DNA of 64,000 nucleotides from Rickettsiales bacterium (GTDB lineage Bacteria; Pseudomonadota; Alphaproteobacteria; Rickettsiales; UBA998), in assembly GCA_028279475.1 (NCBI GenBank), contig JANQNR010000010.1, forward strand, positions 1-64,000. Reading direction: 5' to 3'. Both the position numbers and the translations under genes were made by a program. Positions 28,676 to 62,913 of this stretch are shown one piece after another. Below the pieces are notes generated by a model, which was not told the origin of the DNA, made no database searches, and worked only from the letters and a program-made list of their open reading frames with translations. Position 1 is the stretch's first letter; the number at the start of each line of letters is the position of its first letter.

Positions 28676-29728
28676 TTACAATGCTTTCTGTAGCGTTACA
28701 GTGCCCGGCACCTGCCTTAACACGAAAATATACCGCAATTGCATCACCACCAGCACCATCGCCGTCATCTGATGCGCGCTTGCCAGCGCAATATCGACAA
28801 CGGAAAGTAGCGTGGCCACGCCCAACGCCACCTGCACCACTGCCACTGCTAGCACCAGGTGTGTCCACGTGTTCCGATGCAACAGCCACTGATAGATAAT
28901 GGCCGCCAATACGACAAACGCCCCCCAGCGATGCAAAAACTGGACGGTTGGGATGTGCTCCAGCCAATGCCCCTGCCCAATATGCAATGGCACCCACTGC
29001 CCATCCATCAAAGGAAACGTATTATACACATACCCGGCATCCAGCCCGGCGACAAACGCCCCCAACACAATCTGTATGGCAATGAGCGTGAGTGTCACTG
29101 CGGCATGCGTTACGCTGCTTTCTTTGAATACACCAGCATGACAGCAGCCCCTCACCTGCCAGAACGTCCAGCACAACAGCCCTAAAATCACCGTTGCAAG
29201 TGACAAATGGAATGCCAATTTATACGGACTCACCCATGGATCATGCACCAGACCGCTCTTGACCATGTACCACCCGACAGCGCCCTGCACACAGACCATT
29301 AAAAACAGCCAGGCCGAACGCTTCAATAATGGCGGCGTGAGTGCACGCGTTGCCAGATGATAGAGTAGTGGTGCCATAAACACCAATCCGACGAGTCGCC
29401 CCAGTAAACGGTGAATATATTCCAACCAGTAAATCTGTTTGAAGTCCTGTAATTCCATAAAATAATGCTCTTTATGAAACTCCGGCGTTGCCTGATATGC
29501 GGCGAATTCCTCTTCCCAGGCCTGTTGACTCAGTGGCGGTAGGGTACCCGTCACCAGTTTCCACTCCACGATGGACAGCCCAGATTCCGTCAACCGCGTC
29601 AAACCACCGATCAAGACCATCAGGAAGACTAGAATAATACAGACACGCAACCACCAAAGATAAGAGCGCTGAATGCGCGCTTCATCCGGTTCGCACTTGT
29701 CAGCCGTGCTAAGACTCTTTACTAACAT
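28676..29728 (-). CDS. ctaA: Haem A synthase (COX15 type)
   Basis: Oxidises haem O to haem A for aa3-type oxidases; inner membrane. About eight hydrophobic helices with the COX15 landmarks: VLIGGLTRLTESGLSIVEWK near the N-terminus, EYIHRLLGRLVG with a haem-ligand His, VHDPWVSPYKLAFHLSLA, and HRWGAFVVLAA. 350 residues. The predicted start codon overlaps a possible ATG of the divergent oxidase-like gene, so both starts are packed into about 20 bp. Confidence 0.95.
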   Translation of the reverse strand: MLVKSLSTADKCEPDEARIQRSYLWWLRVCIILVFLMVLIGGLTRLTESGLSIVEWKLVTGTLPPLSQQAWEEEFAAYQATPEFHKEHYFMELQDFKQIYWLEYIHRLLGRLVGLVFMAPLLYHLATRALTPPLLKRSAWLFLMVCVQGAVGWYMVKSGLVHDPWVSPYKLAFHLSLATVILGLLCWTFWQVRGCCHAGVFKESSVTHAAVTLTLIAIQIVLGAFVAGLDAGYVYNTFPLMDGQWVPLHIGQGHWLEHIPTVQFLHRWGAFVVLAAIIYQWLLHRNTWTHLVLAVAVVQVALGVATLLSVVDIALASAHQMTAMVLVVMQLRYIFVLRQVPGTVTLQKAL

Positions 29729-29747
29729 GCAAAAGGTAATATCGCAG

Positions 29748-31298
29748 ATGACACCACCCGTCTATCCCCGTTTTCCACTTTCCTGGCTGACCATCGGCAT
29801 TGCGTCACTCGCTGCGTCCGGCGTTTTTTCCATCATTGTTTCCTTCGCCTGGCATCCATCCGTGCGCTGTGTTGCCTTATTTGAAACCCTGTTTCACCGC
29901 AGCCTGATTACGCATGTCAACCTGTCCATCTCCGTGTGGTTCATGGCCATCCTGTTCATGGTCTGGTCGTACCGTCCCTCCTCCCTGCCATTCTATGACG
30001 CCACAGCACGCTGGCTGACAATTGCCACCATTGTCTTTATGAGCATCGCCGCTTTACTCCCGGAGGCCGTTCCACTGCTGAGTAATTATGTGCCGACACT
30101 GGAACACCCGCTCTTCTTCGTATCGCTTGGCTGTATGACGGCCGCGATCATCGTAAAATCGATGGAGATATTCTATGGCTATATTCACAGGCCAGACATG
30201 ACAAATGAAAGTATTATTCCTCCCCACGCCTGCGGGGGGAGGCCAGGAGGGGGGCTTTCCCACCATGTAAGAATCGAGAATCAAGAATCGAGAACCACAA
30301 ACTTGAATATTCCCGATTCCCGATTCCCGATTCCCGATTCTGCAACAGCCCTTCCCCTATCCCCCTCCCGCAAGCAGGAGGGGGAACCATTGCAACAACC
30401 ATACATAACGTTAAAAACCTACACACTAACCAGCCTGTTCATGCTGCTGGTCGCACTTGGCGCGTTTGTCGCCAGCTATCAGGGGATCGACCGCGCTATT
30501 ACCGGGGAAATATACTATGAAATGCTGTTCTGGGGTGGCGGACACGTACTGCAATTCGTCTGGGTACAACTTACCCTGATCGCCTGGATTCTTTTACTGG
30601 AAGCACTAGTACCGGGATACCGGGCACATCGCGGTTATCGCGCACTGCTCATCATCAATGCATTGGCCGTGCTCACCACCCCCATCCCTTATTTCCTTTA
30701 TGAGGTAACCAGTGCTGATTTCCGCCAGATGTTTTCTCTGTTGATGGCCTGGATTTGCGGTGTTGCCCCCGTATTGTTCGTACTGCTCTACATCGTGCAG
30801 GCAGCGCAGGGGAAACACCCCCTACTCCCCCGCTACCGCCACCCACTCGGTGCCTGCCTGTGGTGGTCGCTTATTCTGTTCGGGCTAGGCGGCATGTTCG
30901 GGGTGATGATCGATGGTATCAATGTCAAGATTCCTGCCCATTACCATGGCTCTCTGCTAGGAGTTACCCTAGCACTGATGGGACTGACCTATCTGACACT
31001 GATGGCACATGACTATGAATATATGGAACGTTCCAAACTGGCCATCTGGCAGCCGACCTTATTGGGCGTGGGACAAATCATGCATATTGTCGGACTGTTC
31101 TGGTCGGGAGGCTATGGCGTAGAGCGAAAAAACCCATGCGCCGGCGGTGAAGCGATGCAACAAGCTGACCTGGCATTACGCATTCAAAGCACTGGCGGTG
31201 GCATCGCCATTCTTGGCGGCCTGCTCTTTGTCATCGTTTGTATGAAAGCTTGGAAAGGTGGAAAAACCCTGCTTGATAAACCTGCCGCAACCGAGTAG
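29748..31298 (+). CDS. Haem-copper oxidase subunit I-like membrane protein with repeat-encoded insert
   Basis: 516 residues from ATG 29748 (MTPPVYPRFPLSW); ATG 29727 is an alternative seven codons upstream. About 12 hydrophobic helices. Histidines sit as in haem-copper oxidases: HVNLSISVWF (helix II), WGGGHVLQFVW (helix VI), AHYHGSL (helix VII) and MHIVGLFWSGG (helix X). It is closer to NorB/cbb3 forms than to aa3 but does not match a standard annotated subunit; activity is unproved. Residues ~157-213 are encoded by a palindromic repeat placed in frame in a loop between helices 4 and 5. Divergent from ctaA, which supports a respiratory role. Confidence 0.7.
   Translation: MTPPVYPRFPLSWLTIGIASLAASGVFSIIVSFAWHPSVRCVALFETLFHRSLITHVNLSISVWFMAILFMVWSYRPSSLPFYDATARWLTIATIVFMSIAALLPEAVPLLSNYVPTLEHPLFFVSLGCMTAAIIVKSMEIFYGYIHRPDMTNESIIPPHACGGRPGGGLSHHVRIENQESRTTNLNIPDSRFPIPDSATALPLSPSRKQEGEPLQQPYITLKTYTLTSLFMLLVALGAFVASYQGIDRAITGEIYYEMLFWGGGHVLQFVWVQLTLIAWILLLEALVPGYRAHRGYRALLIINALAVLTTPIPYFLYEVTSADFRQMFSLLMAWICGVAPVLFVLLYIVQAAQGKHPLLPRYRHPLGACLWWSLILFGLGGMFGVMIDGINVKIPAHYHGSLLGVTLALMGLTYLTLMAHDYEYMERSKLAIWQPTLLGVGQIMHIVGLFWSGGYGVERKNPCAGGEAMQQADLALRIQSTGGGIAILGGLLFVIVCMKAWKGGKTLLDKPAATE
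30217..30386. repeat. G/C-rich palindromic element, type B, in frame inside the oxidase-like gene
   Basis: Left arm TTCCTCCCCACGCCTGCGGG, right arm CCCGCAAGCAGGAGGGGGAA. Between them lie inverted runs of GAATCGAGAATC on the left and TTCCCGA repeated four times on the right. The same arm type occurs at 52710 and 59625. The host frame stays open across it, producing a Pro/Gly/Ser-rich loop. Confidence 0.85.
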
Positions 31299-46827: not shown

Positions 46828-46905
46828 TGTCATGCCGTCGCATGACGGCATCCGGCCAGACCCCGTCACCCGCTGCGCTAGCGCGGCGAGTTCGACGGAG
46901 TGACA
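46828..46905. repeat. Intergenic palindromic repeat, type F (copy 2, opposite orientation)
   Basis: ATGCCGTCGCATGACGGCAT, then CCGGCCAGACCCCGTCACC, GCTGCGCTAGCGCGGC and TCGACGGAGTGACA. The first ~47 bases are the reverse complement of the repeat at 2558-2624 with few changes; this copy has a longer second hairpin. It lies just after the antiporter stop. Confidence 0.8.
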
Positions 46906-47436: not shown

Positions 47437-47718
47437 CTCGTACATATAACTCCCCCCTTGAGGGGGAGTCGGAGAGCACACGCCGAAGGCAGTGCGATCC
47501 GGTGGGGGGTAGAGTTCCCTCTCTCGTGATTTCACCCGCTAGCGGGTGCAGCGACGAGAGGGTTAGGGTGAAGGCTTCTATCAGTAACCACAAAGCCCTC
47601 ACCCGACTCGCTACGCTCGTCGACCTCTCCCAAAGGGAGAGGTTTCCCCCACCCAATCGACCTTCGCATTCGCTCGCTCTCTTGGACTCCCCCTCAAGGG
47701 GGGAGTTATATGTACGAG
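47437..47718. mobile_element. 282-bp composite MITE-like element with 33-bp terminal inverted repeats
   Basis: Ends are CTCGTACATATAACTCCCCC and GGGGGAGTTATATGTACGAG, continuing inward as CCTTGAGGGGGAGTCGGAGA on the left and GACTCCCCCTCAAGG on the right. The centre (~47512-47645) carries further hairpins (CACCCGCTAGCGGGTG; CCTCTCCCAAAGGGAGAGG), as though a second element is nested inside. The core around GAGTCGGAGAGC...GATCCGGTG and CACCCAATCGACC...CTCTTGGACTC is shared with 62758-62886. No coding capacity. It occupies the space upstream of secF. Confidence 0.8.
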
Positions 47719-52649: not shown

Positions 52650-52709
52650 CTGTGCTACGCCCCTTATGTTTCTCACATGCGTCATTATGGATAAGCGGAA
52701 TCCAAAAGT

Positions 52710-52830
52710 CCCCCCTCCTGCTTGCGGGAGGGGGCTAGGGGGAGGGTGTCCGGTGATTTTCGTAAGAAAATCAAAACCGAAACTGTATGACACCCCCCTC
52801 CCAACCTCCCCCCGCAAGCGGGGGGAGGAG
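52710..52830. repeat. G/C-rich palindromic element, type B, upstream of tolQ
   Basis: CCCCCCTCCTGCTTGCGGG with GGGGGCTAGGGGGAGGG on the left and the matching CCCTCCCAACCTCCCCCCGC with GCAAGCGGGGGGAGGAG on the right; the centre has a GATTTTCGTAAGAAAATC stem. The same arm type lies inside clpB and the oxidase-like gene. It leaves an open frame into tolQ, but a true ATG and ribosome site lie after it. Confidence 0.85.
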
Positions 52831-52937
52831 TTTTGATAGATTCCGACCTTCACCCGGAATGACGCATGTTATTGCAGTGATAGGCAATCCCCCAAACCGG
52901 GGCAAGTGGAAAATGGTTTAGACTTTATTTGACAACG

Positions 52938-59226: not shown

Positions 59227-61920
59227 TTACGCCACTTCCTTACCCTCTCCCACCTCAATCAATAGCCCATCCTTATCGGCACTGACCTGCACCGACGCGC
59301 CGTCGGGGATGGCACCGGAGAGGATATCAGAGGCAAGTTGGTTCTCCAGATGCTTCTGAATCACGCGCTTGAGTGGGCGGGCACCATAGACCGGATCATA
59401 ACCCACCTTCGCCAGCCAGTCATAGGCAAGGTCATCCAGACTCAGGGTGATATGGCGCTCCTCCAGCCGCGTCTGCAACCGTGCCAGTTGAATCTCGGCA
59501 ATCTCGCGGATGAGGTCGCTCCCCAGCCGGTTAAACAGCACGATCTCATCCAACCGATTGAGAAATTCCGGGCGGAAGGCAGCGCGCACCGCTTCCATGA
59601 CAGCATCGCGTACCTTGGGAGAAATTCCCCCACCGTTTACGGGTGGGGTTAGGGGGGGGCTCCCTGTATCTGCTTCCAGCCCCCCCTCTGTCCCCCCCGC
59701 AAGCGGGGGGGAGGAAAGATCAGGTTGCTCCGCAATATGATGCGCCCCCAGATTGGAAGTCAGGACAATAATGGTCTGGCGAAAATCGACAGTGCGCCCA
59801 TGGCTGTCGGTGAGCCGTCCGTCATCCAGCACTTGCAACAGCACATTGAACACATCGGGATGCGCTTTTTCCACCTCATCAAACAGAATGACCTGATAGG
59901 GGCGGCGACGCACCGCTTCAGTCAACGCGCCCCCCTGCTCATAACCGACATAGCCCGGAGGGGCGCCGATCAGCCGGGCGACGGCATGCTTTTCCATATA
60001 TTCCGACATATCAATGCGCAGCATCGCGCTCTCATCATCAAAGATAAACCGTGCCAACGCTTTGGTCAGTTCGGTCTTACCCACCCCGGTAGGACCCAGA
60101 AACAGGAATGACCCCAGCGGGCGATTCGGATCCTGCAACCCGGCGCGGGAACGACGTACGGCGTTACTCACCGCCACCAGTGCCTCTTCCTGCCCCACTA
60201 CATGCCTGCGCAGTTCGTCCTCGATGCGCAGGAGTTTCTCGCGCTCGCCCTCCAGCATTTTCTCCACCGGAATCCCCGTCCAGCGCGCCACAATCGCGGC
60301 AATATCCTGATCGGTGATGGCCTCACGCACCATGCTGTTTTCTGCTTCTTTATTGCCTTCATTATGCTCAGCCTGTTCCAGCTGCTTTTCCAGTTCGGGA
60401 ATGATGCCGTAGGCGATTTCACCGGCCTTAGCCAAATCGCCCTCACGTTGAGCGCGTTCCAGGTCAGCGCGTGCCGCATCCAGCTTTTCCTTCACCTCGC
60501 TGGAATCGGCAAGACGTGCTTTCTCAGCCTGCCAGCGTGCATTCAGGTCGAGCGATGTGGTCTCTAGTTCCTTCAGTTCCTCACTCAATCTTTCCAGCCG
60601 TTCCTTAGAGGCGTCATCGGTTTCTTTTTTGAGCGCCTCCGCCTCGATTTTGAGTTGAATGATTTTGCGGTCTAGCTCGTCCAGCTCTTCCGGCTTGCTG
60701 TCTACTTCCATGCGCAGCCGGGACGCCGCTTCATCCATCAGGTCGATGGCTTTATCGGGCAGGAAGCGGTCGGTAATATAACGATTAGAAAGCGTGGCTG
60801 CCGCTACAATTGCACCGTCGGTAATGCGCACTCCGTGATGCACCTCGTATTTTTCTTTTAAGCCCCGCAGGATGGACACGGTGTCCTCGACTGTCGGTTC
60901 GGCAACAAACACCGATTGAAACCGCCGTGCTAGCGCCGCATCTTTTTCAATATGCTGGCGGTACTCATCCAGCGTGGTTGCCCCGACGCAATGTAGTTCT
61001 CCACGTGCCAGTGCTGGCTTCAACAGGTTGGACGCATCCATCGCACCCTCGGATGCTCCGGCGCCGACCAGCGTGTGCAGTTCGTCAATGAACAGAATGA
61101 CCTCGCCTTCCTGCGCGTGAATCTCGGAGAGTACCGCTTTCAGCCGCTCTTCAAATTCACCACGAAACTTTGCCCCGGCAATCAATGCACCTAAATCGAG
61201 CGCCAACAGCTTTTTGCCACGGATCGTTTCCGGTACATCTTCGCTCACAATGCGCTGAGCCAGTCCCTCAATGATCGCGGTTTTCCCCACGCCCGGTTCC
61301 CCGATCAGCACCGGATTATTCTTGGTGCGGCGTGAGAGCACCTGCATGGTGCGCCGTATCTCTTCATCGCGGCCAATCACCGGGTCCAGCCTGTTCTCTT
61401 CCGCCAGTGCAGTAAAATCCTTAGTGTATTTCTCCAGCGCCTGATACTGATCTTCAGCATTGGCTGACTGTGCTTTTCGCCCGCCGCGCATCTCTTTGAT
61501 CGCCGTCTTTAATGACGTTGGCGTGATCCCTGCGTCCTTGATCGCTTCCGCCGCTTTGCCATCCTGCTGCGCGAGCGCTAACAGGAACATCTCAACGGTC
61601 ACAAACTCATCGCCTTCTTTCTGTGATAATTCTTCCGCCGCGCCGATGAGCTTGGCGGTCGCCGGATCGAGCATCAGATTGCCTGCCCCGCCGCCGGAGA
61701 CAGACGGCTGCGCTGTGAGCAACGCCTCTGTGGCCTGCTGGAGTTGCTCGACATTTCCACCGGCGGCTTGCAACAAATGCCGCGAGGCTTTATCCATCTG
61801 CTTCAAGGCGGCAATCAGGATATGCTCCGGCAGAAACCGCTGATGGTCGCGGCGCAGCGCCTCCGCCTGTGCCGATTGCATGAGTTGTTTAGCGGCGTCG
61901 GTATATTTCTCAATTTGCAT
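59227..61920 (-). CDS. clpB: ClpB disaggregase with a repeat-encoded insert in the second AAA domain
   Basis: Hsp104/ClpB chaperone. Start at 61920 ([12 protein letters not shown]) with AGGAG seven bases before; 897 residues. N-domain (~1-145), AAA1 with [10 protein letters not shown], coiled-coil middle domain (~400-525), AAA2 with [27 protein letters not shown] and arginine-finger region [11 protein letters not shown]. Residues ~735-766 (SSPPLAGG...LTPPVNGGG) come from a G/C-rich palindrome at 59625-59716, placed between [13 protein letters not shown] and [10 protein letters not shown]. Without it the length matches normal ClpB, and all catalytic motifs remain in frame. Confidence 0.97.
59625..59716. 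repeat. G/C-rich palindromic element, type B, in frame inside clpB
   Basis: TTCCCCCACCGTTTACGGG and TGGGGTTAGGGGGGGGCTC on the left; GCCCCCCCTCTGTCCCCC and CCGCAAGCGGGGGGGAGGA on the right. Arms and layout match 52710-52830 and 30217-30386. The codons across it are all sense and give a Pro/Gly-rich peptide. Confidence 0.9.
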
Positions 61921-61972
61921 GAAACTGCTCCTGCACTGTACTGTTTCGCTTATCAGTGATATAGTTATAGGT

Positions 61973-62752
61973 ATGAACTGGCTCAAGTCCCTAAATAGCG
62001 GTATTCTGTGTCTGCTTATTATGTGTGGTGTTCCTGCCCACGCGCTCGACATCATTAACCCGACCGAAACTGAAAAAGCCTCCTACCGCATCTATTATAC
62101 CGGCATTCCAGTGGGGAAACTCTGGTTCTGGTGGGAAGCCAATGATGAGTATTACAAAATCACCGCCTCGGTCAAAACCTCTGGAGTCGTGCGGCTGTTC
62201 AATAAGCAAAAACGGCTGGCGGAAGTGTCAGGCAAACGGGATGGCAGCCAGTTTGTTCCCATCCATTATCACGCCAGCGTGACCTACCCGCACAAGCAGC
62301 GCAGTACCGACATGGCTTATGATAATCATCGGCTGCAGCAAGTGGTCAATACGCCACCCAACGACCTGGAACTGAACGACGCCCAAAAGGCACGGGCGCT
62401 GGATCCGCTAAGCGTTATGCTGCAATTGCTGGTGTTTATGCGTGAACCACCGGAAGCGGAAGAACTCTATGCGAACGAAATCTATGACGGCAAGCGGTTG
62501 TTGCGTGGCTACGCGATTCCACATCATGCACCCTCGACGGAGTGTTTGCTCCCCTGCCGCACCTACGCGCTCTATCGCAAACCGTTGCTGGGTTATGATG
62601 AGGATGACCTGAAAAATTATCGGGATGGGGAACCACCACTCTATTTACGCCATAACCCAACTGTGTCGCACTTCCCTATCTCTTTGACTGCCGAAGCGCC
62701 ACTGGGCACAGTAGTCGTCAAGCGGGTTGAAGAAGAAGAGGAAAGGGAGTAG
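61973..62752 (+). CDS. DUF3108 secreted protein
   Basis: 259 residues from ATG 61973, which gives a good signal peptide ([20 protein letters not shown], cleavage near AHA-LD); an earlier frame start at 61880 lies inside the clpB leader. The mature part has [28 protein letters not shown], and [14 protein letters not shown], typical of DUF3108, a beta-rich periplasmic/outer-membrane family of unknown function found in Alphaproteobacteria. It is divergent from clpB by 52 bp. No typical ribosome site precedes it. Confidence 0.8.
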
Positions 62753-62757
62753 GTTTT

Positions 62758-62886
62758 CCACTCTCCCCTTGCGGGAGAGTCGGAGAGCGCAACGCGCGAT
62801 CCGGTGAGGGGTAAACATAGCACCCCTCACCCAATCGACCGGCGCTATCGCTTGGTCTCTTGGACTCTCCCGCAAGGGGAGAGTGG
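62758..62886. mobile_element. 129-bp MITE-like element with 24-bp perfect terminal inverted repeats
   Basis: Ends CCACTCTCCCCTTGCGGGAG and CTCCCGCAAGGGGAGAGTGG, perfect over 24 bp. Inside it shares GAGTCGGAGAGC, GATCCGGTGAGGGGT, CACCCAATCGACC and TCTCTTGGACTC with the longer element at 47437-47718. No coding capacity. It sits between DUF3108 and the dehydrogenase gene, starting 6 bp after the DUF3108 stop. Confidence 0.85.
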
Positions 62887-62913
62887 ATTCATATTAGTAG
62901 GGGAGAACACACC

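Follow-up and report, generated by a model that had tools for sequence, protein, structure and literature searches.

An in-frame palindromic insert in an oxidase-like membrane protein

The 64,000-nt stretch of Rickettsiales DNA analyzed here (the window) contains a gene for an oxidase-like membrane protein with a palindromic DNA sequence inside its reading frame. What is this sequence, and what could have moved it into a coding region? The relevant features are listed below. A and B denote two repeat families, and R1 is a model of the A repeat that we used to search the genome.

29748–31298, + strand: host gene, heme-copper-oxidase-subunit-I-like membrane protein, 516 aa (PF00115 COX1, AlphaFold2, Foldseek)
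30217–30388, + strand: whole composite palindromic insert, 172 bp, in frame (R1 match 30216–30383, E = 3.4e-14; orthologues without insert)
30217–30254, + strand: left arm of A, inner hairpin CCTCCCCACGCCTGCGGGGGGAGG, then CCAGGAGGGGGG (95% identity over 41 nt to other copies in the genome)
30270–30341, + strand: nested B, inverted pair of heptad arrays, GAATCGA.. / TTCCCGA x4 (pair 84% complementary)
30342–30388, + strand: right arm of A, GCAACAGCCC..CCCCCTCCCGCAAGCAGGAGGGGGAA (95% identity over 44 nt to the LeuRS copy)

The open frame runs from 29673 to 31298 (541 aa), with a likely start at 29748, and the adjoining gene on the opposite strand encodes CtaA. The protein matched PF00115 with an E-value of 1.5e-8, slightly below the curated cut-off. 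An AlphaFold2 model of all 516 residues (pTM 0.84, 30 sequences) gave as best Foldseek matches cbb3, ba3 and other heme-copper oxidases together with nitric oxide reductases (E ~1e-6). The insert corresponds to residues ~157–213 of the protein starting at 29748. In the model, pLDDT falls below 50 at 159–211, between helix 4 (121–147) and helix 5 (222–246), so that the insert, rich in proline and glycine, is predicted to form a disordered loop between these helices. An initial annotation of this DNA had assigned the insert to the loop joining helices 4 and 5, describing the frame as kept; the model and the open 541-aa frame bear out both points.

That annotation had also proposed that orthologues should lack the insert while aligning on both sides of it. 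All eight orthologues aligned (same order; three at 52–55% identity) indeed lacked it, and both flanks aligned. In this alignment, ~64 residues are unique to the protein studied here. The arms of the insert recur elsewhere in the genome (best E 1e-13). The eight insert-free orthologues and the recurring arms support the view that a mobile palindromic element lies in frame in the oxidase-like gene.

The insert consists of two nested elements

The arms start with CCTCCCCACGCCTGCGGGGGGAGG.. at 30219, and the opposite arm ends with ..CCCCCTCCCGCAAGCAGGAGGGGG at 30385. Between them lie the TTCCCGA x4 array (30310–30337) and its imperfect inverted partner (30270–30294), just where the initial annotation had put them. 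The RNA fold of the insert had a predicted energy of -76.6 kcal/mol (z = -6.2), and none of 200 shuffles was equally stable, indicating that the palindromic structure exceeds chance.

When the insert was used as a query against the genome, three kinds of partial match were obtained: left arm, right arm and centre. A and B each have separate copies, which rules out a single repeat family. Independent copies of B lie at C1:75838, C11:366445, C14:24928, C14:157439 and other places. Judged by these repeats, the insert is two nested elements, with A outside and B inside its centre. B (30270–30341) interrupts the centre of A and leaves 22 of its 30 nt. The earlier description of one element of ~170 bp was thus right as to the palindromic insert and wrong as to its unity. 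Likewise, its 'same element type' holds for the A arms, which R1 also matches at 59623–59716 in ClpB, and fails for the TTCCCGA centre, which belongs to the other family.

Family A is dispersed, mostly between genes

The genome searched comprises 1.98 Mb in 19 contigs (completeness 100%). R1 gave 44 strand-wise matches, equivalent to ~20 places. In an intact A (~108–110 bp), each arm contains a hairpin (CCTCCCCCCGCTTGCGGGGGGAGG); there is also a longer stem, and the centre was exactly 30 nt in 11 of 11 copies examined. The arms consist of C and G runs. The element is short, with terminal inverted repeats, and has no transposase gene of its own. When read, A encodes 31–38 residues and no domain. 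Judged from occupied sites, the borders of A and B showed no clear target-site duplication. Two further A elements lie in the window:

52703–52831, - strand: A element between genes, where a putative MotA/TolQ-like ORF has its 5' end (R1, E = 4.4e-23)
59623–59716, - strand: A element inside ClpB, the second read in frame (gene 59227–62055, minus strand; R1, E = 3.2e-12)

The ORF behind the first of these we take to be MotA/TolQ-like. The second is very probably the other in-frame copy that the initial annotation had reported for the window; here ~38 A-coded residues (777–814) stand in for ~9 residues of E. coli ClpB.

The majority of A copies are intergenic. Those within conserved genes (COX1-like, ClpB, LeuRS, TsaC and, as a half copy, IspDF) are all in frame, as is an A-like copy with other arms in RibE. 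B lies in frame in RecO, and half a B in RluD. The reading frame used differs between in-gene copies, so no single peptide is conserved. The initial annotation had suggested selection for open frames. Given that A is mostly intergenic and that all its copies in conserved genes are in frame, these copies are best read as the result of survivorship, the simplest account.

Could the loop instead be an ordinary low-complexity expansion, selected at the protein level, with the palindrome incidental? A disordered loop rich in proline and glycine would fit. But copies of the same DNA occupy intergenic positions as well as unrelated genes, where they are read in differing frames, and the loop is missing from all aligned orthologues. 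The dispersed copies refute this explanation, to which we give virtually no credence.

Other palindromic repeats in the window and genome

Several further repeats were seen. The palindromes of family B (L096, L098, L097 and L095) include the in-frame copies in RecO and RluD and also lie at the N-termini of YceI-like and GH114-like proteins. Upstream of a SecF-like gene, 47437–47718 holds a palindrome of another type (arms CTCGTACATATAACTCCCCCCTTGAGGGGGAGT.., 40 nt, 95% complementary) with a nested A-like repeat; arms of this type also border the DUF559 domain in this genome's DnaE. A second copy of the CTCGTACATATAACTCCCCCCTTGAGGGGGAGT arm type (62757–62887; 36 nt, 89% complementary) directly precedes a short-chain dehydrogenase gene. 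A further inverted repeat family (TGTCATGCCGTCGCATGACGGCATCC..) is present at 2569–2624 and 46828–46868, with 98% complementarity between both places; outside the window, some copies of A have similar CGTCATTCCGG repeats around them. LeuRS (L101, G000:C9:41200-45200) has two different in-frame palindromic inserts, A and one read as the peptide SSPRRRPGSDCNDVKDSGLRRNDD, which looks to be encoded by a TGTCATTCC-type repeat.

A nuclease domain lies between A arms

In IleRS of this genome, the two halves of A stand 350 bp apart, and the Vsr-like endonuclease domain DUF559 (PF04480, E = 5e-41) lies between them in frame. The match between the ends of this insert and the arms of the oxidase insert suggests what may move such repeats. 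No second IleRS gene was found in this genome, so the insert-bearing gene should be the working copy. The genome has two DUF559 domains in total, both in frame and both in essential genes: the one in IleRS, with A arms, and one in DnaE, with the other arm type.

We considered whether A arose recently from the IleRS element by loss of its interior, and rejected this. The two match in their arms and at the first bases of the core but no further, so that the 30-nt centre of A retains little of the DUF559 core; this also weighs against the model proposed below. This mismatch and the 30-nt centres in 11 of 11 copies indicate that A is a lineage of its own.

We also analyzed 344 genomes of relatives labelled Rickettsiales. 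DUF559 was present at E <= 1e-10 in 59 of them. Stop-free frames of >250 aa contained 57 of 82 DUF559 loci, and frames of at least 500 aa contained 47 of 82. Outside the order, a class-wide sample gave 14 and 5 of 101 for these two lengths (Fisher 9e-15 for >250 aa and 8e-16 for at least 500 aa). The hosts that Pfam confirmed from domains surrounding DUF559 were GltB, IleRS, ValRS, DnaE, LeuRS, RecG, PriA, CarB, RecJ, RecO, TsaC, LipB, TlyA, HolC, RdgB, an L,D-transpeptidase and a restriction-modification enzyme. Among order loci with enough flank, inverted repeats flanked DUF559 in 65 of 80 (>99th percentile of shifted controls); outside the order, they exceeded the control threshold in 19 of 28.

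Are these in-gene nucleases self-splicing inteins, with A as an intein remnant? Their hosts are essential, conserved enzymes, and an endonuclease is carried, as in inteins. Yet those DUF559-bearing ORFs that were scanned with Pfam showed DUF559 and host domains, with no intein/Hint domain, and peptides encoded by the arms connect DUF559 to the host protein. A itself encodes only its 31–38 residues. We therefore rejected an intein identity for the DUF559 inserts, and an origin of A from inteins is highly improbable.

Full and nuclease-free forms also meet at the same genes. Genome G038 carries two such inserts in its IleRS gene, at separate sites: a DUF559 element and a copy with the same edges from which the nuclease is deleted; in this copy (201 nt including flanks), the left ~70 nt and the right edge match the full element. 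IleRS insertion sites of DUF559 elements recur across genera, and the A elements in LeuRS and TsaC of the present genome lie at about the same positions as DUF559 elements in other families. Two other synthetase genes showed additional features. In IleRS of G007 (L298), a second in-frame insert of ~180 aa, GNAT acetyltransferase-like by eye, accompanies the DUF559 element, and in ValRS of G003 (L315) the left arm of the element is amplified to six in-frame repeats of ~15 residues each (EKPSPSGRGLGEGTT).

DUF559 is conserved as a protein and co-occurs with A-like elements

The motif E[LIVM]DGxxH is kept in 56 of 57 in-gene DUF559 copies. In two close pairs, dN/dS was 0.06 (pS 0.48, pN 0.04) and 0.03, within a range of 0.03–0.18 where computable. 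The kept motif and low ratios indicate that the nuclease domain is selected as a protein; by these sequence comparisons, DUF559 is under purifying selection.

DUF559 occurred in 20 of 20 genomes with A-like elements in the class sample, against 31 of 115 overall (p = 7e-15; from handles and listing order, we took the 115 genomes to be the first part of the larger class sample), and in 15 of 19 such genomes in the order sample (p = 2e-7), where these p-values are uncorrected for G+C, genome size and phylogeny, and the two presence calls are partly dependent because part of the R1 matches are arms beside a DUF559. In the four remaining relatives with A-like elements, two of them incomplete assemblies, DUF559 was not detected, which counts against DUF559 as the mover.

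These data bear on whether DUF559 is the mover or mere cargo. Another transposase or recombinase that recognizes the hairpin arms might move palindromes with or without the nuclease, and the several arm sequence types that flank DUF559 (A, the CTCCCCCTTGAGGGGGAG type and others) are compatible with this. The purifying selection on DUF559 and its co-occurrence with the elements speak against it. The classic mover of palindromes is the Y1/RAYT transposase. However, PF01797 had no match in this genome and was found in 2 of 20 genomes with A-like elements versus 13 of 95 without (p = 1), so we rejected Y1/RAYT as the mover. Overall, we regard a cargo role for DUF559 as rather unlikely.

A proposed model for movement of the insert

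We think it probable that the insert began as an RPE-like A element landing in frame, into which B inserted afterwards, that A is grouped with full members bearing DUF559, and that DUF559 drives the movement. A would be a non-autonomous palindromic mobile element that landed in a surface loop, and the unrelated heptad palindrome B would have inserted into it later, with the frame again kept. Full-length members of the larger group, with DUF559 between similar arms, would enter housekeeping genes in frame and be translated together with the host protein, to which they add a domain. The nuclease may cut DNA, either at hairpin-extruded arms or at a target, and repair of the break may copy the element into the cut. 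Arm-only derivatives such as A could then be mobilized in trans. Insertions in essential genes would survive only if they are stop-free, keep phase and fall within a tolerant loop. We infer that DUF559 is the mover and that the element travels by break repair; that DUF559 cuts DNA, that A moves in trans and that hosts retain the insert as an extra domain are likewise conjectural parts of the model.

More tentatively, the nuclease-bearing forms may constitute a class of splicing-free mobile elements in essential genes, with DUF559 between the arms, translated with the host and active, that spreads both itself and nuclease-free palindromes.

Comparison with known systems

RPEs (RPE-1 and following; Ogata 2000, 2002, cited in PMC10969869) are dispersed in-frame palindromes of ~100–150 bp. 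A is reminiscent of these, being a short, dispersed palindrome in many copies, in frame in unrelated genes, in the same bacterial order: it measures ~108–110 bp, lies at ~20 places and is in frame in COX1-like, ClpB, LeuRS, TsaC, IspDF and IleRS genes. It differs in its C-/G-run arms with a hairpin within each, in its tie to a nuclease-bearing version and in its nesting with a second palindrome family. Since A was set beside RPEs by description, we do not class it as an RPE. Might it nonetheless descend from the RPE families of Rickettsia, as a Rickettsia palindromic element proper? The shared order, the size and the in-frame habit (PMC10969869) would agree, whereas the arms built of C and G runs would not, nor did an Rfam scan of the 64-kb window match any family, though RPEs may be absent from Rfam. 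We consider such descent quite improbable and retain the view of A as RPE-like.

A also resembles MITEs: it is a non-coding inverted repeat with a fixed 30-nt centre, many copies and ends common to a larger coding element. The common ends are found in IleRS, where DUF559 lies between A arms, and G038 supplies a nuclease-deleted derivative. Unlike in MITEs, the candidate partner of A bears a DUF559 nuclease instead of a DDE transposase. No clear target duplication was seen.

REP sequences are extragenic. They share with A the dispersed palindromes and, in RAYT, a single-domain nuclease-type partner, but RAYT (PF01797) is neither in this genome nor associated with the elements, and A also lies within genes.

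By analogy, the nuclease-bearing form can be likened to a homing endonuclease that lacks an intron or intein. The nuclease lies within the host gene with its catalytic residues kept, in essential genes and at the same IleRS, LeuRS and DnaE sites across genomes. Such recurrence is compatible with cutting of an empty allele and copying into it, as in homing. In contrast to homing endonucleases and inteins, no splicing element was found, the arms are palindromic, the sites are many and nuclease-free copies are dispersed. As the splicing domain is missing, we do not class the elements as inteins.

The same domain, DUF559 (PF04480), occurs in Caulobacter VsrA, a Vsr-like member of the PD-(D/E)XK superfamily proposed as a mismatch-repair enzyme (PMC12907096); hence, DUF559 proteins need not all belong to such elements. 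VsrA is proposed to act as a free enzyme, whereas here DUF559 lies within other proteins between palindromic arms. Homing endonucleases of the PD-(D/E)xK and EDxHD families are known (PMC3943268). Together with the fold class of VsrA, this makes the model reasonable by analogy.

Implications for palindromic elements and DUF559

The literature surveyed gave no answer to how in-frame palindromes arise and move in relatives of Rickettsia. Among open-licence papers, we found no resident enzyme named for RPEs and no link of DUF559 to palindromic repeats or mobility. The present set supplies a named candidate enzyme, full and deleted forms together in one gene, and a genome-wide association. It also indicates that a nuclease domain of foreign origin, ~105 residues long, can be accommodated by aminoacyl-tRNA synthetases and by a subunit of DNA polymerase, in which no splicing domain was found. 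In addition, it points to a possible role for DUF559, one of the common domains of unknown function. If the model is true, protein-coding palindromes of the RPE type would gain an enzyme, and DUF559 a function.
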